Of a stretch of 64,000 bases of DNA, positions 26,093 to 62,165 are shown piece by piece. This DNA comes from Pseudomonadales bacterium (lineage in GTDB: Bacteria; Pseudomonadota; Gammaproteobacteria; Pseudomonadales; Azotimanducaceae), in NCBI GenBank assembly GCA_028285415.1, contig JANQPF010000026.1:124001-188000 (forward strand). Reading direction: 5' to 3'. The translations under genes were made by a program, and so were the position numbers. The first letter of the stretch is position 1. Every line of letters begins with the position of its first letter. Under the pieces are notes generated by a model that did not search any database, was not told the origin of the DNA, and saw only the letters and a list, made by a program, of their open reading frames with translations.

Positions 26093-27691
26093 ATGTCCAA
26101 TCCCATAGCCAGAGCAGGATTGCTCGCTTTCGTCGTGCTGCTGATTGCCTGCACCGGGGAAGCTCGGCAAACGTGGATCGTCCAAGGCACGTCTTTGGCC
26201 GTCGCTGCCGAAGCCGCCACCGCCATCGGCGGGGACGTGACGCACGAACTCAGCGTCATCCAGGGAGTCGCAGCTCACCTCACCGAACGACAGAAAACCG
26301 AACTGGCGCGTGACCCGTCGCTACGCCTGTGGCTGGATCGACGTCTGGCCGTCTCCCGCAAATCAGACCGCTCGGACGGACACCGCGGAAACGCCGTGCC
26401 GGAGCCGGGATTCCCACAAGCAGCCAACGTCGTGGCGTTGCACCGTCAGGGTATTGATGGGTACGGCGTCAACGTTGCGGTGATCGACACGGGATGGTGG
26501 GTCAGTCACAAGTGGCAAAAAAAGGACCTGACCCACGCAACCCGTATTGTCGCCGAGTACAACGCCATCGATGACAGTACGTCAGACATGCGCGACGACA
26601 GCGGTCACGGCAGCCACGTGACCAGCGTCATTCTGAACAGCCAGACGGCACCTTCGGGCCAGGCTTTGTCAATTGCACCCATGGCGGGTCTCGTCAGCAT
26701 CAAAGCATTCGATGCAACGGGCAGAGCCACCTATGCGGACGTGATTCGCGGGATCGACTGGGCGGTTAGACACAAAGACGAATACGACATCCGGATTCTG
26801 AACCTGTCTTTCAGCGCACAGGTACAGTCCCACTATTGGGATGATCCTCTGAACAAGGCGGTCATGGCGGCCTGGCAGGCGGGCATTGTGGTTGTCGTTG
26901 CTGCCGGGAACGACGGGCCCGATACCATGACAATCGGCGTGCCAGGAAACGTCCCGTACGTGATTACCGTCGGTGCCATGTCAGACAGCTATACGCCTCA
27001 CGATAGGAGCGACGACAGGATCGCATCGTTTTCGGCCACCGGACCAACCTACGAAGGCTTTCTAAAACCCGAGCTCGTCGCACCGGGTGGACACATGCTG
27101 GGCAGCATGCAGGCGAGTCAGCACGCCATAGCAGGAGACCACTCCGAATGGGCAAGCGATCACAACAAGCTCTTCACGATGTCCGGCACCTCACCGGCGG
27201 CAGCCGTAGTCAGCGGCGTTGTAGCGCTGATGCTGCAGGTTGATCCCTCACTGCAACCCGACGAGGTCAAGTGCAAGCTACTCGCTTCCGCACGGCCAAT
27301 CGCCAACAGACGCTTCACGCTCTTTCAACAAGGTGCCGGACTGGTTGACGCCGGGCAATCCGTTGTAAGCCCTGCCTGGGGGTGCGCTAACGGTGGTCTG
27401 GACGTGGCGGCGGATCTTGCGGGAACGATGCATTTTGCCGGTCCGGCGCTCCTCTCGCCGATGACCGACCGCCACGATATGAGTGACTACGAATTCGATT
27501 TGTCGGACTTCAACGAGAGCATGCGAAGCGGCAGCTTCATCTGGAACAACTGCTTCATCTGGAACAACAGTTTCATCTGGAACAACAGCTTCATCTGGAA
27601 CAATGGTTATCCATGGGCGGCTGACGAGGATCGCGAGGATCTGGATGCAAGCGCAGCAGTCACGATCAACCGGTGGGTGAGTCAGGAGTAA
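26093..27691 (+). CDS. Subtilisin-like S8 serine protease lipoprotein with C-terminal FIWNN repeats
   Basis: A 532-residue S8 peptidase. The N-terminal signal has a possible lipobox (LLIAC, C20), followed by a propeptide-like region. The catalytic triad is complete: D132 (AVIDTGWW), H172 (DSGHGSHV) and S367 (SGTSPAAA), with the oxyanion asparagine in AAGND. After the catalytic domain and a linker with DLSDFNE, residues 481-504 are four six-residue repeats [SC]FIWNN, then a short acidic tail. It is secreted or outer-membrane anchored. Natural substrates are unknown. The repeats could serve as a sorting tag or a released peptide (inference). Confidence 0.93.
   Translation: MSNPIARAGLLAFVVLLIACTGEARQTWIVQGTSLAVAAEAATAIGGDVTHELSVIQGVAAHLTERQKTELARDPSLRLWLDRRLAVSRKSDRSDGHRGNAVPEPGFPQAANVVALHRQGIDGYGVNVAVIDTGWWVSHKWQKKDLTHATRIVAEYNAIDDSTSDMRDDSGHGSHVTSVILNSQTAPSGQALSIAPMAGLVSIKAFDATGRATYADVIRGIDWAVRHKDEYDIRILNLSFSAQVQSHYWDDPLNKAVMAAWQAGIVVVVAAGNDGPDTMTIGVPGNVPYVITVGAMSDSYTPHDRSDDRIASFSATGPTYEGFLKPELVAPGGHMLGSMQASQHAIAGDHSEWASDHNKLFTMSGTSPAAAVVSGVVALMLQVDPSLQPDEVKCKLLASARPIANRRFTLFQQGAGLVDAGQSVVSPAWGCANGGLDVAADLAGTMHFAGPALLSPMTDRHDMSDYEFDLSDFNESMRSGSFIWNNCFIWNNSFIWNNSFIWNNGYPWAADEDREDLDASAAVTINRWVSQE
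27533..27604. repeat. Four tandem 18-bp repeats encoding [SC]FIWNN
   Basis: Units at 27533-27550, 27551-27568, 27569-27586 and 27587-27604, consensus AGCTTCATCTGGAACAAC with one or two mismatches per copy. The array is in frame and near the 3' end of the S8 protease gene. Near-identity of the copies suggests recent slippage or strong selection on the peptide sequence. Confidence 0.93.
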
Positions 27692-29839: not shown

Positions 29840-30334
29840 CTAATCTGACGCAGGTGCCTTTTCCTGCCAGCTGTGCCGCCAGACGCGCCATTGCCCGTCC
29901 GGACGCTTCCGCACGACGTCGAAATAACGCGCAGACGTGCGTGACGCGGTCAATGCGCCCGGCTCGTCTACCCCGACGTTCGGGTCTTTGCGGTTGAGGT
30001 CAATGGTGTAGTCGTACTGCACAATGGCCGTATCACCCCAGACGAGGATCTCGGGCGCCACGTCCACGGTGATGTCGTAGGTTGCCGTTGCAAACACCGG
30101 TTTGAGGAACTCACCATACCTGTCAGCGCCATCAATGGCCGGTCCGCCAGGCGGCAGCAGGCGCACCTCCGGATCCAGCACGCCCACGTAGCCGGCAATG
30201 TCGCTGCTTTCGACCGCCGTGCGCCACTTGGCGTACAGCGCCTCGATGTCTGCCAGCGCTTTCCCAGCGCTACCGTGCCCGTCCGCCCACACCGGAGCCG
30301 CCAGCAAAATCAGCAGAACCCAGCACTTACGCAT
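29840..30334 (-). CDS. Exported SnoaL/NTF2-like protein
   Basis: A 164-residue protein with a signal peptide (MRKCWVLLILLAAPVWA) and one NTF2-like domain (LADIEALYAKWRTAVESSDI, LLPPGGPAIDG, ILVWGDTAIVQYDYTI, RPDGQWRVWRHSWQ). A strong AAAGGAGGGG Shine-Dalgarno lies two bases before ATG 30334. It follows the redoxin/cytochrome/copper protein by 19 bp on the same strand, so it is probably co-transcribed and acts in the same compartment. Function unknown. Confidence 0.88.
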   Translation of the reverse strand: MRKCWVLLILLAAPVWADGHGSAGKALADIEALYAKWRTAVESSDIAGYVGVLDPEVRLLPPGGPAIDGADRYGEFLKPVFATATYDITVDVAPEILVWGDTAIVQYDYTIDLNRKDPNVGVDEPGALTASRTSARYFDVVRKRPDGQWRVWRHSWQEKAPASD

Positions 30335-30353: not shown

Positions 30354-32096
30354 TCAGCGGCTGGCAACCTCTTTGGCTGCCTCACGCTGCTCCAGCACAG
30401 CTTCCGGCGTATCGCCGACATAGCGCAGCGTCGTGAAGCCAAAAAACATTTCATGAATCGTCTGCAGCCCGAAATGAACCGGCCGGTTCGGGTCCGGATT
30501 GGCCGGGTTGCGAGCCGAGTTATCCATTGCGCCTCGCGCAATCAGCTTCGTACCCGCCGGCAGGAAGACAGGCTCCTTGAGCGGATAATTGAACTGCCAG
30601 TTGAAGTTGTATTTAGGCACGGATAACAATACTTCGGACGTACCGTCCGGATACTCAGCGGTATAACTCATGTACTTACCGCGATAGTGCATGTGGGGCA
30701 TGAGATCGTAGAGATACGCATCGCGCTCAATCTCCTGCACGCCTTCGAGCTTGTACTCTTTCTCATGGGGCGGTACGAGAAAGCGACGCTGACCAGCCAC
30801 GCCGCCGGACATGACGTAGGTCGGCGGCTTGTCGTAGATGTAGATGCCAATTTCGGTTTCGTCCACCGTGGCCTTGCCTGACGTCGTGTAGTGCATCTGC
30901 AGCAGCAGGTTCGATCCTTTGCGGATCAGACGACCGCTGTTGTCGCGGAACGTATCGCCCGGACGTCCCGGTGCAAACCCGCCGACACTTTCTCCCTGAG
31001 CAGCACCCGTAGCTCTGCCACGAACCGTCTTGTCGGCCGGACTCGAAACATAGGCGATCACGTGATGGACCACCGTCGGATCGCCAGGCACAAACTCCAT
31101 GGCTTTGACCCATACGTCGCGGTCTAAATTCAGCTCCACCGGCACATAGCGGTAGTCCAATACGCCGGTGGCGGGAATCTCCTGCGCCGGAATCGTATAG
31201 ACCAGATCCGGCTCGCCGAAGCCCCATTTGCTGTTGGCAAACTGCAGCCCTTCCAACGGATCGGGCGCATCGTCACCCGGTGCGCCCGCATCTATCCAGT
31301 GTACGAGCTTCTGCATTTCTTCAGTCGTGAGTCCAGCAACCTGCAAGAGCTCCCGGCCGACATGCGGATCAACCTGTCCAGGCGGCATACGCTGCGTCAT
31401 GACCACTTCACGCATCATTGCCGACCAGCCCTGCACCATCGCATGACCGGTCATGGCCCAGGGACCAATGCCGCCTTCGTGATGACACTGCACACAGTTT
31501 TCCTGGAGGATGGGAGCGATGTCTTTGCTGTAAGAAACCGTCTGCGCTCGCGGCGCGTAGGTAATCGGCGCTCCGGCGGCCGCAAACTCAGCCACGGTGA
31601 CCTCTGCGCCTTCGACAGCGGCGTTGATGGCGCCGCGAACTTCACCAAGCTGATCCAGACTGCCGCGATATACGAGTTGCATCGTGTCGGGTTTAATGAC
31701 GAGTACCTCGCCGATGCGCTCCACACCCAACGACTCTGCTACCAGCTGCGTCTCGTCGACGAGAATCGGCAGCGTGATCCCCTGCTTTTCGGCAGCCGTG
31801 GCGATGCTCTGCCGCGTGTCGCCTGCGACTGCATTCAACATCTGAAAGAGAACCGGCACCCCGGCGTATTCCGCCTGCAGCGCGTCCAGCTCCGCGAGGT
31901 GATCGTTGACGGCGGCGCTGTCGTTGGCATGGATGACCATCACGATTGCAGCCTGATCACCGTAGTAGCTCAGCTGATGAAAGGTACCCGTATGATCGAG
32001 CAACGCAAAATCGCCCACACGGCTCGCGTGCGCGCCACTTGTCAACGAAGTGGTCACAAACAAGACAGCAAGCAGAATCACGGTTCGCATTTTCAT
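30354..32096 (-). CDS. Secreted redoxin / cytochrome c / copper type II monooxygenase-like fusion
   Basis: A 580-residue exported protein (signal peptide ending AHA-S25). Residues about 26-170 form a peroxiredoxin-like thioredoxin fold with no cysteine. Residues 185-275 are a c-type cytochrome with CVQCH (C201, C204, H205) and a likely distal Met in RMPPG. Residues about 315-560 match the peptidylglycine-hydroxylating/dopamine monooxygenase fold with every copper ligand in order: H344 H345 and H402 (CuH), H468 xH470 and M550 (CuM). The natural inference is that heme feeds electrons to the copper centre in place of ascorbate. Substrate unknown. The start is ATG 32096; ATG 32090 is also possible. 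Confidence 0.9.
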   Translation of the reverse strand: MKMRTVILLAVLFVTTSLTSGAHASRVGDFALLDHTGTFHQLSYYGDQAAIVMVIHANDSAAVNDHLAELDALQAEYAGVPVLFQMLNAVAGDTRQSIATAAEKQGITLPILVDETQLVAESLGVERIGEVLVIKPDTMQLVYRGSLDQLGEVRGAINAAVEGAEVTVAEFAAAGAPITYAPRAQTVSYSKDIAPILQENCVQCHHEGGIGPWAMTGHAMVQGWSAMMREVVMTQRMPPGQVDPHVGRELLQVAGLTTEEMQKLVHWIDAGAPGDDAPDPLEGLQFANSKWGFGEPDLVYTIPAQEIPATGVLDYRYVPVELNLDRDVWVKAMEFVPGDPTVVHHVIAYVSSPADKTVRGRATGAAQGESVGGFAPGRPGDTFRDNSGRLIRKGSNLLLQMHYTTSGKATVDETEIGIYIYDKPPTYVMSGGVAGQRRFLVPPHEKEYKLEGVQEIERDAYLYDLMPHMHYRGKYMSYTAEYPDGTSEVLLSVPKYNFNWQFNYPLKEPVFLPAGTKLIARGAMDNSARNPANPDPNRPVHFGLQTIHEMFFGFTTLRYVGDTPEAVLEQREAAKEVASR

Positions 32097-32144: not shown

Positions 32145-34499
32145 ATGGACCAGAGCAGGGCATCACGTTTCATTATGTCGTTTGTTGTCGAACAATTGCT
32201 GGCGCGGCGCCACGTACTGGCGGTTTTCACCCTCCTGTTAGGCGCTTTCGTCGCGTGGGGCATGAACTACTCCTCCATTGAGGCGACCTTCAAAGCGATT
32301 CTGTCCGAGGACGATCCTTATAAGTCTGAGGTTGATCAGGCACGCAGCGACTTTCCACCGAGCACCAGCGTGCTCTTCGCCTTCGAAACGGACACCGATG
32401 TCTTCACGTTCCCCGCGCTGCGCGCGATGGACGAGCTGACGAACCGCTACACCGAAATCAACTCCGCAGTGTCGATCGGCGCCCTGACCAACCGGCGCCT
32501 GAATTCCGTGGACGCCGAACGCTACGATCGCGACTACATCATTCCGATCATCGACTCGCTGGAAGAAGCGGATCTGCCAGAGCTCAAAGCGCTCGCGCTG
32601 AAAGACGAAGACCTCACCAAAAGTCTGCTGTCAGCCAACGGCGACATGGCGCTGGCCGTGATTAAATACAAGGCGCCCCGCGATGAGCAGGACGTACGCC
32701 TCGACATTGCCCGTTCGGTGATTACCCTGCGCGACGATTTGCGCGCCAGATATCCCGGGGTGAATATTTATGTCCTCGGCAGCGCCCTGTTCGAGCTCGA
32801 TGGATACAACGCACAGATCAAGGACAGTCAGACGCTGATGCCACTGACGGTCGGCATCGGCATCCTGCTTCTCTGGTTCTGCCTGCGCTCCCTGCCCTAC
32901 GCGGTCTGTCTCTTTACGGTGGCGTTCGCCACCATTGGTCTCTCAGTGGGTACCTGGGGATGGCTCGACATACCGTTCAATCAGATCTCGAGTCTCGGCC
33001 CCATCGTGGTTCTGGTCATTGCCATCGCCGGTGGGATTCACATCGTGTCTGTCTACGCCCAGGGATTGAGCTCGGGCATGGACAAGACGGATGCAATGCG
33101 CGACAGCCTGAAGATCAACCTGCAGCCTGTGACGCTCGCCACCATCACCACGTCCATGGGTTTCCTGAGCCTCAACTACTCTTCGTCGCCTGGCATCTAC
33201 GGCTTCGGCAACATCATTGCTCTGGGCACGTGGTGGGCCTACCTCGTGACATTGTGCCTGCTCCCGGCGTTGATCATGCTGCTCCCGGCCAACAAAGTCG
33301 CCAAACCGCTCGGCGTCCAGGACTTCATCAACTGGACCGATCGGATGGTGCACACTCGCGGTACCGCGCTCTTCTGGGGCAGCGCGGTGATCATCGTCGC
33401 CACGCTCGCGATGCTGCCGCTCAACAAACTCGACTTCAATCGATACAGCTTCGTCGACGAAGACTCGGACTTTCACTACGTCATGACCGCCCTGCGCGAG
33501 AAGATCGGCAACGATCAGAGCCTCGTCTACAGTATCGACAGCGGCCAGTACTACGGCATCACGGAGCCCGAGTTTCTGGAGCAGGTGAACGCGTTTTCCA
33601 CCTGGGTTGAATCTCAGCCCGAAGCAAGCTTTGTGACGAGCTATACGGACCTCCTGCGCAGCCTCAATCAGTCCGAGCACGACGACGACCCGGCGTACGA
33701 CGTGCTGCCCGAAGATAAGCTGCAGATCATCGACTACCTGGTCGGCTATCAGCTCATTCAGGAGATCGAACCCAACCTGGAACCAATTTTCAACAACAAC
33801 TATTCCGCCATTCGTCTCGTCGTCGGCACGTCGAATCTGACCAACGGCCAGCTCATCAACCTCAACGACCGCATCGATGGCTGGATAGCGGACAACCTCA
33901 ATCCCGAGTACAAGGTACTGCACGGCGACAACAGCATTCTCTTTGCCCGCCTGGATCAATCCATCACCGAAGAGCTTTTCAAGGGGTTTTCGCTGAGCTT
34001 CGTGCTCATCACCCTCACGCTGCTGGTCGGGCTGCGCAGCGTACGCTACGGACTGCTGAGCATCATGCCCAACCTGTTCCCCGCTACCATCGTCTTCGGC
34101 TTCTGGGGACTCTTCGTGGGCGAGCTGAGTCCCTACGTCCTCATGCTCTTCTCAATCAGCATTGGCATTGTCGTCGACGACTCGGTGCACATCCTGAGCA
34201 AATACATCAGCGCGAAACGCGAGGGGGCAACGCCTGAACGGGCGGTGAGCTATTCGCTGGAAAAAGCCGGATCAGCGATCACGATAACAACGCTGTCACT
34301 GGCGGTAGGCACCTTCATTCTCGTCTTCTCCAATACGTTCCACTTTCAGAATGTGGCACTCCTGCTGACCCCCATCATCGTGGTGGCCCTGCTCCTCGAC
34401 CTGCTCTTCCTGCCACCGCTGCTCATGCGCTTCGACCGCTGGCGAGAGGCTCGAGACGTTGGAGATGGTGTTAACCAGTCACTCGCTGCCCGCAGCTAA
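32145..34499 (+). CDS. RND superfamily permease (MMPL/HpnN-like)
   Basis: A 784-residue membrane protein with the duplicated RND layout: one N-terminal helix (HVLAVFTLLLGAFVAWGM), a periplasmic domain, five helices at about 225-380, then a helix near 405, a second periplasmic domain, and five C-terminal helices from about 610. Signature segments are GIGILLLWFCLRSLPYA, IVVLVIAIAGGIHIVSVY and SISIGIVVDDSVHILSKY (the proton-relay region with paired Asp). This class moves lipids or hydrophobic compounds rather than drugs. It is divergent from the copper/heme fusion with only 48 bp between starts. ATG 32145 lacks a good Shine-Dalgarno; ATG 32175 is an alternative. Confidence 0.92.
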   Translation: MDQSRASRFIMSFVVEQLLARRHVLAVFTLLLGAFVAWGMNYSSIEATFKAILSEDDPYKSEVDQARSDFPPSTSVLFAFETDTDVFTFPALRAMDELTNRYTEINSAVSIGALTNRRLNSVDAERYDRDYIIPIIDSLEEADLPELKALALKDEDLTKSLLSANGDMALAVIKYKAPRDEQDVRLDIARSVITLRDDLRARYPGVNIYVLGSALFELDGYNAQIKDSQTLMPLTVGIGILLLWFCLRSLPYAVCLFTVAFATIGLSVGTWGWLDIPFNQISSLGPIVVLVIAIAGGIHIVSVYAQGLSSGMDKTDAMRDSLKINLQPVTLATITTSMGFLSLNYSSSPGIYGFGNIIALGTWWAYLVTLCLLPALIMLLPANKVAKPLGVQDFINWTDRMVHTRGTALFWGSAVIIVATLAMLPLNKLDFNRYSFVDEDSDFHYVMTALREKIGNDQSLVYSIDSGQYYGITEPEFLEQVNAFSTWVESQPEASFVTSYTDLLRSLNQSEHDDDPAYDVLPEDKLQIIDYLVGYQLIQEIEPNLEPIFNNNYSAIRLVVGTSNLTNGQLINLNDRIDGWIADNLNPEYKVLHGDNSILFARLDQSITEELFKGFSLSFVLITLTLLVGLRSVRYGLLSIMPNLFPATIVFGFWGLFVGELSPYVLMLFSISIGIVVDDSVHILSKYISAKREGATPERAVSYSLEKAGSAITITTLSLAVGTFILVFSNTFHFQNVALLLTPIIVVALLLDLLFLPPLLMRFDRWREARDVGDGVNQSLAARS

Positions 34500-59038: not shown

Positions 59039-60300
59039 ACGACGCCACAGGCTCAGAGCTCAGACGCGGCTGGTTTCTGGTCCTGTCTGCCGGCGCCGGC
59101 GTGGCGCTCAGTTCACTCGTTCTGCCCTATTACTCCGTTGGCGCGCTGGTTGTGCCCATCACCGAAGAACTCGGCTGGACGCGCGCGCAGTTTCAGACTG
59201 CAATTCTCTTCAGCTCAGGACTCGGGGTCATCACGTCACCCATTGTCGGCTGGCTGTGCGACCGCTATGGGGCGCGGCGAGTTGCCTTACCCAGCATCCT
59301 GGGTCTGACGCTTGGGTTTGTGCTGGCAGCGAGCCAGAACGGGGCGCTGTGGATGCTGTACCTCGCCTACGCGGTGATGGCCGTCCTTGGGGCCGGAACC
59401 ATCCCGGTCACCTGGACCAGGGCGATAACAACCAACTTCTTCAAGCAGCGGGGACTGGCGCTGGGCCTTGCCCTGACCGGCACCGGAATATGCGGCGTGC
59501 TCATACCCCAATACGCCACGTGGCTGGTGGAAATTGCCGGGTGGCGCGGTGCTTACGTCGGCATTGCGCTGCTGCCGCTCCTCATCGCCCTGCCACTCGT
59601 TTTCTTCGGATTTCGACCCCGGGAACGCCATCACCACGACGATCAGGCTGTGGCAGCACCCCACGAAACCGGTCTGACTCTGAAGCAAGCCACGCGCGGT
59701 TATCGCTTCTGGGTGCTGTTGTTGTCCATTTTTGTGGTTTACATGGCGCTGTCCGGGATTGGCGCCAATCTCTATCCCGCAGTCACCGACGCCGGCATGA
59801 GTAACAGCAATGCCGCCACCGTCATGAGCGTCTTCGGCGGCGCCATCATTTTCGGCCGGCTTCTGGTTGGATATCTGGTCGACAAGTTCTGGGCACCGGC
59901 GGTGGCCTCAATATCCATGCTGTTACCCACCATCGGCTGCTGGCTCATGATCGACCCGCAGAACTTCTGGGCCGCGGCGACGGCGGCAGCGCTACTGGGT
60001 CTGGCGGCGGGTGCGGAACTGGACCTGATGTCTTTCCTTGCGGCCAAATACTTCGGCCTCAAACACTATGCAAAGATTTACGCGGTGCTCTACATGGCGC
60101 TGGCCACGTGTTCCGGAACCGCGCCCCTCTTGTTCGCCACGGTGTACGATCGGGCCGGCAGCTACTCGGTCGGCTTCATGATCGCGCTGGGCCTTTTCCT
60201 GGTGGGCGCCGCGACCGTGTTGCTGCTCGGGCGCTATCCGCCTGAGGGCTCGCTGGAAGCCGCGGGTGCAAAGACCAGCAACACGTTGCCGGGCTCGTGA
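59035..60300 (+). CDS. MFS transporter, probably starting at CTG
   Basis: A 421-residue major facilitator protein, monocarboxylate-porter-like: GWFLVLSAGAGVALSS begins TM1, GWTRAQFQTAILFSSGLGVITSPIVGWLCDRYGARR is TM2-loop motif A, and SVFGGAIIFGRLLVGYLVDKF is the second-half equivalent. GTG 59101 would cut TM1. The only upstream codon that restores it is CTG 59035, which overlaps the amidohydrolase TGA (CTGA) and has GGCGGAG seven bases upstream. It probably imports the substrate of the amidohydrolase or Rieske/PQQ enzymes. Its last 67 bp overlap the convergent PQQ gene. Confidence 0.9.
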   Translation: MNDATGSELRRGWFLVLSAGAGVALSSLVLPYYSVGALVVPITEELGWTRAQFQTAILFSSGLGVITSPIVGWLCDRYGARRVALPSILGLTLGFVLAASQNGALWMLYLAYAVMAVLGAGTIPVTWTRAITTNFFKQRGLALGLALTGTGICGVLIPQYATWLVEIAGWRGAYVGIALLPLLIALPLVFFGFRPRERHHHDDQAVAAPHETGLTLKQATRGYRFWVLLLSIFVVYMALSGIGANLYPAVTDAGMSNSNAATVMSVFGGAIIFGRLLVGYLVDKFWAPAVASISMLLPTIGCWLMIDPQNFWAAATAAALLGLAAGAELDLMSFLAAKYFGLKHYAKIYAVLYMALATCSGTAPLLFATVYDRAGSYSVGFMIALGLFLVGAATVLLLGRYPPEGSLEAAGAKTSNTLPGS

Positions 60301-62165
60301 AAGTAGAGTCCGTATCCTGAGTTGACGGCCACATACCCGGCTGCCACTGCCGGACCGGCGCCGCTCATGCTGCCGCCCCTTCCCGTCACCCCGTTGACGC
60401 CGGTATGCGCAACCGTGGTGTCGTACGACCAGAGCAGATCACCGCTGCTTTGCTCATACGCACGCACGACCCCGTCGAGATGGCCGGCAAAGACAACGCC
60501 AGGCGACGCGGTGATTGCAGCTGACACGCCAGGGTCGCAGAACTCCCGCGCTTCGCCGCAGCGATCATCCTGCACGTGATTCCAGACCACCGTACGTTCC
60601 GCCAGATCAATCGCGTGCACACCCGGACGGGCGAGCTCCTGATCCAGGAAGTCACCGTTGCGGGTGTCGTTCATGTCGTTGATCGGGGCGTACAGCAACG
60701 CGTCTTCGGCAGCCATGCCGAAGTGGATTCCACCCTGAATGCTGCCCCGCCCGACCCTGAGAGACCACATCACTTCACCCCGACGATCGGGATCCAGCAC
60801 GTACACCGTGCCGTCTTTGTGACCTACCGCCAGCACGTCTTTGCCATCAGGCAGCGTGGCGAGAATCATCGACGCGCCAAGATCGAAGTCAGGTCCGCGC
60901 TCCGGCGGACAATTGGGGTTGTCCTCCATCATACAGGCGACGTTCCAGGCATCTCCGGATGTGCTCTGCATCTGCCAGACCCGTTCGCCGGTGTCCATGT
61001 CGACCGCAAACACGGCATCGCTGTTGCCGTCTGCCGGGGTGGAGTAATTTTCACCGCTGCCGAAATAGATCCGGTTACGTTTCCGGTCGACCGCGGGGCT
61101 GCTCCAGACTGGCGCGCCGGAGGGTGATAGCACCGCCGTACCCGCGCTGGTGGTTCCCGTCTGCTGTGGTGCCTCCGGTATGGTGTAGTGGCGCCACAGC
61201 TCTTTCCCGTCGGCGACGCTCAGAGCAAGCACGCTTCCGCGAAAGCTGCAGCATGGATAATCCGGATCCGCGGCGGGAATGACTTCAAGAGACGAGATGG
61301 GCACGAACAAGCGATCGGACACCAGAGCCGGCGTCCCCGTCAGCGTCGCCGACGGATGATCATCGGTTTTGAGGCTCCAGACGAGTTCCCCGGTGAAGGC
61401 ATCCACCGCGTAGAGTTTGGCGAGAATGTCGCCGAACACGGCCAGCGGCCGCTCACCCTCGGCAAGCACAATTCCGGTCCGCACTTCAGCGGACGCGGCA
61501 AACGTCCAGTGCACACAGCCGCTTTCGAGATCAAAGGCGTAAACGGTGCCATCCTGCGAACCCGTGTAAAGCGCCCCCCAGCCCATGGCCGGCTGTGATC
61601 TTGCCCGCAGCGCGCCCGGGTAAACAAAACTCCACTTGAGCTCCAGCGTCCTCGCCTGCTCGGCGTTTACGCCACCGGCAGACGCTGGCGTAAAACGCGA
61701 CGTGTCGTGGCCCCAGCCTACCCTGGGCGGCGCTGACTCCCGATCGAAAGCGACATCTGCTTCACACATCGGCAACGTCTGGACGGCCAACGTATCTGCC
61801 GGGGCGCGGGTGATGTACTCGACGACGTGCCGGCGCTCCGCGTCGCTCAGCATGGCTGCCTGTGGCTGCATGACACCCGCTTCCAGCGAATTCAACAGCA
61901 CCGCCGGCGTCATCATCTCCAGCCAGCTGAAGTGCGGCGCCTTGGGTACGGTGCCGTCGTGGCAGTACACGCAGTGTTGGGCATAGAGCGCAGCCCCCGG
62001 CATCTCTTCGCGCGGCCCGAAGTCCCCGCTGGTCGCCTGAAACTGGTCGGTCGATTGCAGCGTCTCCGGCTCTGCTTCCGGCTCCGTCGGAAGAGATGTC
62101 TCAGGTGCCTCGCCGCAGGCAGCAAGCACCAGCAGGCTTAGTGCCGCAATTCTGAGAGTTACCAT
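60234..62165 (-). CDS. Quinohemoprotein (PQQ) dehydrogenase lipoprotein, PVA-dehydrogenase-like
   Basis: A 643-residue exported protein. Lipobox LVLAAC (C17); a c-type cytochrome next (CVYCH, C65-H69, with a Met in PQAAM); then an eight-bladed PQQ propeller from about residue 140 (WSFVYPGALRARSQPAMGWGALY, YPCCSFRGSV with vicinal cysteines, CPPERGPDFDLGASM, VGHKDGTVYVLD). The cytochrome-first order and these motifs resemble polyvinyl-alcohol dehydrogenase. It would oxidise an alcohol in the periplasm and hand electrons to the respiratory chain. ATG 62165 overlaps the Rieske gene's stop by 7 bp; the 3' end overlaps the MFS gene. Confidence 0.92.
   Translation of the reverse strand: MVTLRIAALSLLVLAACGEAPETSLPTEPEAEPETLQSTDQFQATSGDFGPREEMPGAALYAQHCVYCHDGTVPKAPHFSWLEMMTPAVLLNSLEAGVMQPQAAMLSDAERRHVVEYITRAPADTLAVQTLPMCEADVAFDRESAPPRVGWGHDTSRFTPASAGGVNAEQARTLELKWSFVYPGALRARSQPAMGWGALYTGSQDGTVYAFDLESGCVHWTFAASAEVRTGIVLAEGERPLAVFGDILAKLYAVDAFTGELVWSLKTDDHPSATLTGTPALVSDRLFVPISSLEVIPAADPDYPCCSFRGSVLALSVADGKELWRHYTIPEAPQQTGTTSAGTAVLSPSGAPVWSSPAVDRKRNRIYFGSGENYSTPADGNSDAVFAVDMDTGERVWQMQSTSGDAWNVACMMEDNPNCPPERGPDFDLGASMILATLPDGKDVLAVGHKDGTVYVLDPDRRGEVMWSLRVGRGSIQGGIHFGMAAEDALLYAPINDMNDTRNGDFLDQELARPGVHAIDLAERTVVWNHVQDDRCGEAREFCDPGVSAAITASPGVVFAGHLDGVVRAYEQSSGDLLWSYDTTVAHTGVNGVTGRGGSMSGAGPAVAAGYVAVNSGYGLYFHEPGNVLLVFAPAASSEPSGG

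Follow-up and report, generated by a model that had tools for sequence, protein, structure and literature searches.

The window, by which we mean the whole stretch of 64,000 nucleotides of Pseudomonadales DNA that was analysed, encodes a secreted protein (P0001) in which a redoxin domain, a monoheme c-type cytochrome domain and a copper domain of the PHM/DBM type are joined in a single chain. We consider it likely that P0001 is a periplasmic copper monooxygenase of the PHM/DBM kind that carries its own electron supply and whose substrate or product is moved by an RND permease. The gene for this permease lies divergent to the P0001 gene and recurs beside its orthologues, which suggests that enzyme and permease form a self-powered oxidation-and-transport unit. 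A preliminary description of the same DNA had pointed to a redoxin-heme-copper protein at this place; the observation is confirmed, and the interpretation attached to it is partly supported.

Gene and protein organization

The open frame could be confirmed; it is encoded by the minus strand, a detail that the preliminary description had not given. The features of the gene, of its product and of the adjacent genes are as follows (positions in the window):

30354..32096, minus strand: secreted redoxin / monoheme cytochrome c / PHM-DBM-type copper protein of 580 amino acids (P0001)
32025..32096, minus strand: signal peptide, residues ~1-24, assigned by eye
31611..32018, minus strand: redoxin (thioredoxin-fold) domain, residues ~27-162, without cysteine
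31248..31541, minus strand: monoheme c-type cytochrome domain, residues ~186-283
31482..31496, minus strand: CVQCH heme site, residues 201-205, in 57 of 57 relatives
31386..31388, minus strand: M237, likely distal heme ligand, within an MPP motif, in 57 of 57 relatives
30417..31211, minus strand: PHM/DBM-type copper domain, residues ~296-560, from Pfam and fold search
31062..31067, minus strand: H344 and H345, predicted CuH ligands
30891..30893, minus strand: H402, predicted CuH ligand
30687..30695, minus strand: H468 and H470, predicted CuM ligands
30447..30449, minus strand: M550, predicted CuM ligand
32145..34499, plus strand: divergent MMPL-type RND permease, the conserved partner, with the two start codons 48 nt apart
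29840..30334, minus strand: secreted SnoaL/DUF4440 (NTF2-fold) protein, 19 nt downstream, a neighbour that does not recur

The residue numbers given before for C201, C204, H205, M215, M237, H344, H345, H402, H468, H470 and M550 proved exact. Pfam places AhpC-TSA at residues 27-129 (E 5.8e-8, above the cut-off) and Cu2_monoox_C (PF03712) at residues 435-530 (E 1.4e-4), the latter with 21.8 bits at a cut-off of 23; the score is 23.0 bits when the cytochrome and PHM part of P0001 is the sole query. In the same scan PF01082 had no match in P0001, and the cytochrome c models gave weak matches below the cut-off (E 0.05 and 0.1). P0001 contains two cysteines in total, both within the heme motif, and its redoxin part is thus cysteine-free, as had been claimed.

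The copper domain

Homology, predicted fold and putative ligands assign the copper domain to the PHM/DBM type, in agreement with what had been proposed. The fold was predicted in two models of moderate quality, in which parts of the cytochrome region have a pLDDT below 50. Model 1 (AlphaFold2, full length) reached a mean pLDDT of 74.5 and a pTM of 0.60. Model 2 covers residues 184-563, draws on 12 sequences that include neither the redoxin-less relative L075 nor any other redoxin-less relative, and has a mean pLDDT of 69.2. In Foldseek searches with the full-length model, PHM or DBH chains fill the first 31 places among the PDB matches (best E 3.1e-13, TM-score to the target at most 0.66), followed by thioredoxin-like proteins that match through the N-terminal part. 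With model 2, places 1-31 are likewise taken by PHM or DBH (best E 9.3e-13). Both predicted structures therefore retrieve solved PHM/DBH structures first. For the superposition of the six ligands on PHM that the preliminary description had proposed, the sequence alignment of a relative, L075, to PHM (see below) serves as a substitute.

At the level of sequence, Cu2_monoox_C is matched by 13 of 23 members when each is scanned singly. L075 is above the cut-off for both PHM Pfam domains (PF01082 and PF03712) and matches rat PHM with an E of 2.8e-7, with HH, H, HxH and M all in register; P0001 in turn matches L075 with a phmmer E of 2e-25, calculated for a nominal database of one million sequences. 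The profile A4, which includes L075, finds human DBH (1.8e-9) and PHM (3.3e-5) among PDB sequences; a direct comparison of A4 with L075 was disregarded as circular, since L075 is part of the profile. Profiles without L075 (A5, and A6, from which only L075 was dropped) found no PHM or DBH among the PDB sequences at E values up to 1, and the link between P0001 and PHM is therefore transitive at this level, running via L075. Judged by its sequence, P0001 is not PHM proper, as it has neither the disulfide cysteines nor the substrate arginine.

Conservation was counted in a first set of 57 non-redundant relatives, from which fragments shorter than 400 amino acids (L041, L103 and L102) and duplicates had been dropped. 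L051, L052, L069 and the copy in G358 (L100) enter none of the counts, because ORF picking favoured a longer overlapping frame. The predicted CuH ligands H344, H345 and H402 are kept in 57/57 relatives, and the predicted CuM ligands H468, H470 and M550 in 56/56, with one further row that stops at a contig edge. In the wider set, 103 of 107 rows keep all six, so that the complete ligand set in canonical order, as originally read, withstands the comparison with homologues. The four exceptions are L024, which is cut by a contig end, and three natural losses. L128:5476-7113 and L138:5595-7382 have Ser at position 345 and Arg at position 402, by which the CuH site is lost and the CuM site kept, while L133:5412-7280 has Arg and Ser at positions 468 and 470, by which the CuM histidines are lost and the CuH site kept. 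These three proteins are candidates for natural one-copper relatives, and some members of the family may accordingly not be classical monooxygenases.

A further position of interest lies two residues before the first CuM histidine. It is occupied in PHM by R240, which binds the substrate carboxylate, and in P0001 by M466. None of the 57 first-set rows has Arg here, and members of the RND-linked clade carry Met, Thr, Asn or Ala; in the wider set, Arg occurs in 19/19 split PHM-only proteins (see below) and in two full-length ones. Arg466 was considered as a transporter marker and rejected: in the three relatives that adjoin a CstA gene the residue is Arg once and Ala twice, and one more Arg occurs without such a neighbour. 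A link between residue 466 and the transporter is thus only suggestive.

The heme and redoxin domains

P0001 has the class I cytochrome c traits, CxxCH and a candidate distal Met (C201/C204/H205/M237), and the window's own genome encodes CcmH for c-type heme maturation. C201, C204, H205 and M237 are each found in 57/57 first-set rows and Met215 in 54/57. The earlier reading of a CVQCH site with a distal methionine therefore stands, but of the two methionines M215 fits this role less well than M237. CxxCH and Met237 are kept in 88/88 rows that have the heme domain (57 from the first set and 31 from the second). The rows were found by likeness to P0001 or to its cytochrome and PHM part, a mode of selection that favours such an outcome. 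The survey of homologues thus finds a c-type heme domain fused in all 88 unsplit relatives that were aligned.

The redoxin domain is more variable. It is present in 54 of the 57 first-set rows and missing from the other three and from eight later rows. A single cysteine occupies the position aligned with S60 in 25/54 redoxin-bearing rows and is missing from P0001; a cysteine-free redoxin, correctly noticed in P0001, is therefore not general among its relatives. The tree requires at least three changes of the cysteine state, most simply losses. Since P0001 lacks this cysteine, its redoxin domain probably does not act as a peroxidase or catalytic peroxiredoxin.

Cytochrome-PHM genes without a redoxin part occur at L058:6568-11580, L133:7554-11594, L134:3861-6133, L136:5628-8140, L137:4751-7167 and L141:5074-7406. 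Most of them adjoin a gene for a secreted-looking protein of ~285-350 amino acids; these neighbours are alike by eye, and the four that were scanned had no Pfam match.

The RND permease and other neighbours

The product of 32145-34499 matches the MMPL Pfam family above the cut-off (E 1.5e-31), and HpnN (6wu0) is the solved structure nearest to it by sequence (E 1.4e-10). It stays below the NCBIfam cut-offs, with 152 of 352 bits for TIGR00921 and 108 of 752 bits for HpnN, and its match to the CusA/CzcA metal family is weak (20 of 701 bits).

Across the 18 orthologous loci that were compared, one of which is that of the window, the permease gene is the immediate divergent neighbour every time; any other gene cluster occurs in at most 4 of them. 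When loci with short flanks are included, the permease is divergent in 22/22 rows of at least 57% identity, and with G009 and G734 (other family) it is adjacent and divergent in 24/24 orthologous loci in which that flank is present. Viewed from the permease, 16 of the 100 genomes of the window's family contain RNDs of 54-100% identity, the next RND homologues being only ~31% alike. Fifteen of these 16 have an orthologue of at least 58% beside the RND, which in G009 is found as two pieces on two contigs. The sixteenth genome, G017, has a truncated copy beside the RND at a contig end (46% over 93 residues), which was left out of the 24 loci because its position next to the RND is the sole sign of orthology. 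G069, a family genome of 77% completeness, contains no close RND; its orthologue is a fragment (74% over 149 residues) situated at the edge of a contig.

In a quick tree, from which L024 was left out, a branch with an SH-aLRT of 99 separates the RND-linked rows from the others. Outside this clade, a related RND lies near two more distant members, L022 and L116, and is oriented convergently. The identity distances of enzyme and permease correlate (Mantel r 0.83, none of 2000 permutations as high, n 18), a correlation that shared descent alone would also give.

The divergent RND permease noticed at the outset is thus the conserved partner, and the NTF2-fold protein, named with it as part of a possible unit, is not. 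The secreted SnoaL/DUF4440 protein does lie directly downstream, but it does not recur: it is absent from the neighbour clusters common to at least 3 of the 18 loci, whose flank lengths differ.

Several other arrangements were observed. A recurrent cluster at L022:10839-15592, L117:7096-14649, L118:3263-10900 and L119:2688-7684 combines a related RND permease with a LysR-like regulator (by eye), an FAD/NAD-binding reductase (by Pfam in L117) and a stand-alone redoxin. A CstA transporter gene, named by Pfam in L121 and L126 and by a shared motif in L139, adjoins three full-length relatives (L121:1975-5455, L126:4128-7744 and L139:3335-6930). The neighbourhoods of the paralogues in the window's own genome revealed no nameable shared partner. 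Elsewhere in the window, a tandem repeat of four 18-nt units (27532-27603, plus strand), which encodes repeated S-F-I-W-N-N, stands at the end of a subtilase gene (26093-27691).

Distribution and split operons

Matches that cover the PHM part are found in 49 of the 100 genomes of the window's family, and matches of any kind in 54 (hand count). At the level of the order, 23/293 genomes have a match over the PHM part at an E of 1e-30 or better, and in a sample of the phylum the PHM part is matched in 3/398 genomes, the window's genome included. Profile A4 matches 70 of these 398 genomes, and only in G000, G358 and G195 does the match extend over the PHM part; the other 67 matches are confined to the cytochrome part and span no more than ~100 of the profile's 380 positions. 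Within G195's family, one of 61 genomes matches, namely G195. PF03712, tried as a survey tool, matched 2/398 genomes of the phylum sample and was rejected as too insensitive. Searches of plasmids gave no match, either with P0001 or with a redoxin-less relative as query. The window's genome has four copies of the gene family, and MAGs with the titles Haliea and Halioglobus are among the close relatives.

In f123, another family, the eight genomes that were searched contain 9-16 matching stretches each, some of them genes in two pieces and some redoxin-only. Six f123 genomes (G531, G585, G630, G649, G667 and G684) have split clusters of 4.4-5.6 kb, at the following places:

L108:7367-12970
L109:5995-10667
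L110:5619-10064
L111:6153-10722
L112:5788-10367
L113:6191-10644

Each consists of one redoxin-cytochrome-only gene and three PHM-only genes (four in G684). All six copper ligands are kept in 19/19 PHM-only proteins, and 6/6 split redoxin-cytochrome proteins retain CxxCH, both Met and a redoxin Cys. This natural division into neighbouring genes is the best evidence in the present analysis that the redoxin-cytochrome part serves the copper part. Downstream, the split operons continue with an FMN oxidoreductase and a BCCT (betaine/carnitine/choline-type) transporter, assigned by Pfam in G684 and by shared motifs in the other five.

Proposed mechanism and alternatives

In the mechanism that we favour, the putative c-type heme (C201/C204/H205, distal M237) would be reduced by periplasmic or membrane redox partners and would pass single electrons to CuH (H344, H345 and H402) and from there to CuM (H468, H470 and M550). 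CuM would be the site of O2 activation, with oxidation of the substrate at a C-H bond or at a heteroatom. The heme would thereby take the place of ascorbate, as the preliminary description had suggested; indirect support comes from the split operons and from the precedent of a c-type cytochrome that reduces bacterial copper LPMOs (PMC8981238). The cysteine-less redoxin domain probably serves for docking or as a scaffold. The RND permease would move the substrate or the product between the inner membrane and the periplasm or the outside, and the transported compound is probably hydrophobic or lipid-like. Hopanoids and sterols are reported or proposed cargoes of RND permeases of the HpnN and BstA kinds (PMC10942540). 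An endogenous hopanoid or sterol was considered as the substrate and set aside: the SQHop cyclase is absent from the window's own genome, is found in one (G098) of the 16 close-RND genomes and is above the cut-off in 12/100 genomes of the family. This scarcity makes endogenous triterpenoids an unlikely substrate.

Electrons could also flow in the reverse direction, with the copper domain oxidising the substrate and the cytochrome accepting the electrons for the respiratory chain, which would make P0001 dehydrogenase-like on a PHM fold. Single-heme c domains often serve periplasmic dehydrogenases as electron acceptors, and the same window encodes a beta-propeller protein of the PQQ type to which a cytochrome c domain, above its Pfam cut-off, is fused (60234-62165, minus strand). 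Nevertheless, the complete set of PHM ligands is conserved, and O2 activation is what the two-copper PHM/DBM site is known for, so that we regard the reverse flow as unlikely. A peroxide-driven reaction, in which H2O2 is the co-substrate and the redoxin part the relic of a peroxide-handling domain, would account for the fusion of a redoxin in most first-set rows and for the one cysteine that nearly half of these retain, and peroxide chemistry is known for other copper monooxygenases. We consider it improbable in view of the missing redoxin cysteine in P0001, of the repeated changes of this cysteine in the tree and of the three first-set rows that have no redoxin domain at all.

Finally, the PHM fold could act without catalysis as a copper sensor, store or scavenger, with the RND permease engaged in metal or stress handling. 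The loss of one of the two sites in three relatives is compatible with such a role, and RND pumps include metal exporters. However, the permease is of the MMPL/HpnN type and resembles CusA/CzcA only weakly, and an electron-transfer heme fused in every one of the 88 aligned unsplit relatives makes little sense for a store; we therefore judge a role in copper handling very improbable. The copper monooxygenase supplied with electrons by its own cytochrome remains the reading that we prefer.

Significance

PHM and DBM are textbook enzymes of the synthesis of animal peptide hormones and catecholamines, in which ascorbate is the electron donor. Their two copper sites are ~11 Å apart, and the route by which electrons reach and cross these distant coppers is a long-running question. 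The bacterial family described here, with its built-in putative heme donor, its split versions and its one-site variants, would make the entry of electrons and the need for each copper directly testable, and it points to a module that combines oxidation with transport.

We tentatively raise the possibility, to which we give slightly less than even weight, that the family represents a large and overlooked bacterial radiation of heme-wired PHM/DBM-type hydroxylases with a modular power unit and with transporters particular to each subfamily. If so, the redoxin-cytochrome power unit would either be fused to the copper domain or serve several copper subunits of an operon, the transporters (RND here, BCCT or CstA elsewhere) would define periplasmic modules for different substrates, and the natural variants in which just one of CuH and CuM is kept would count as one-copper members. 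The literature searched for bacterial PHM/DBM-like or cytochrome-fused proteins, to which most subscription journals do not belong, described none of this cytochrome-PHM kind.

Comparison with known systems

The copper domain of P0001 has the predicted fold of PHM, as retrieved by Foldseek, and the ligand order HH / H / HxH / M, in register via L075. P0001 differs from PHM in being bacterial and in its fusion to a c-type heme domain and a redoxin domain. The PHM core contains disulfides, whereas the copper domain of P0001 has none because both of its cysteines sit in the heme site, and a Met stands where PHM has R240. DBH/DBM likewise shares the predicted fold (4zel); unlike DBM, P0001 has a cytochrome c and a redoxin domain, and it has no Pfam match to DOMON.

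LPMOs, whose site holds one copper, provide a second point of comparison. The c-type cytochrome CjX183 of Cellvibrio japonicus, which derives from Cbp2D, reduces bacterial copper LPMOs (PMC8981238). By analogy, a c-type cytochrome would also be the donor to a copper monooxygenase in P0001. In the system of Cellvibrio, cytochrome and oxygenase are separate proteins, the copper site is that of an LPMO and the substrate is a polysaccharide, in contrast to the single chain and the PHM/DBM-type site of P0001.

The RND partner resembles the HpnN / HAE3 / MmpL permeases in its MMPL Pfam match and in its nearest solved structure. It differs from them in lying far below their NCBIfam cut-offs, and it forms a group of its own that is tied to this enzyme.
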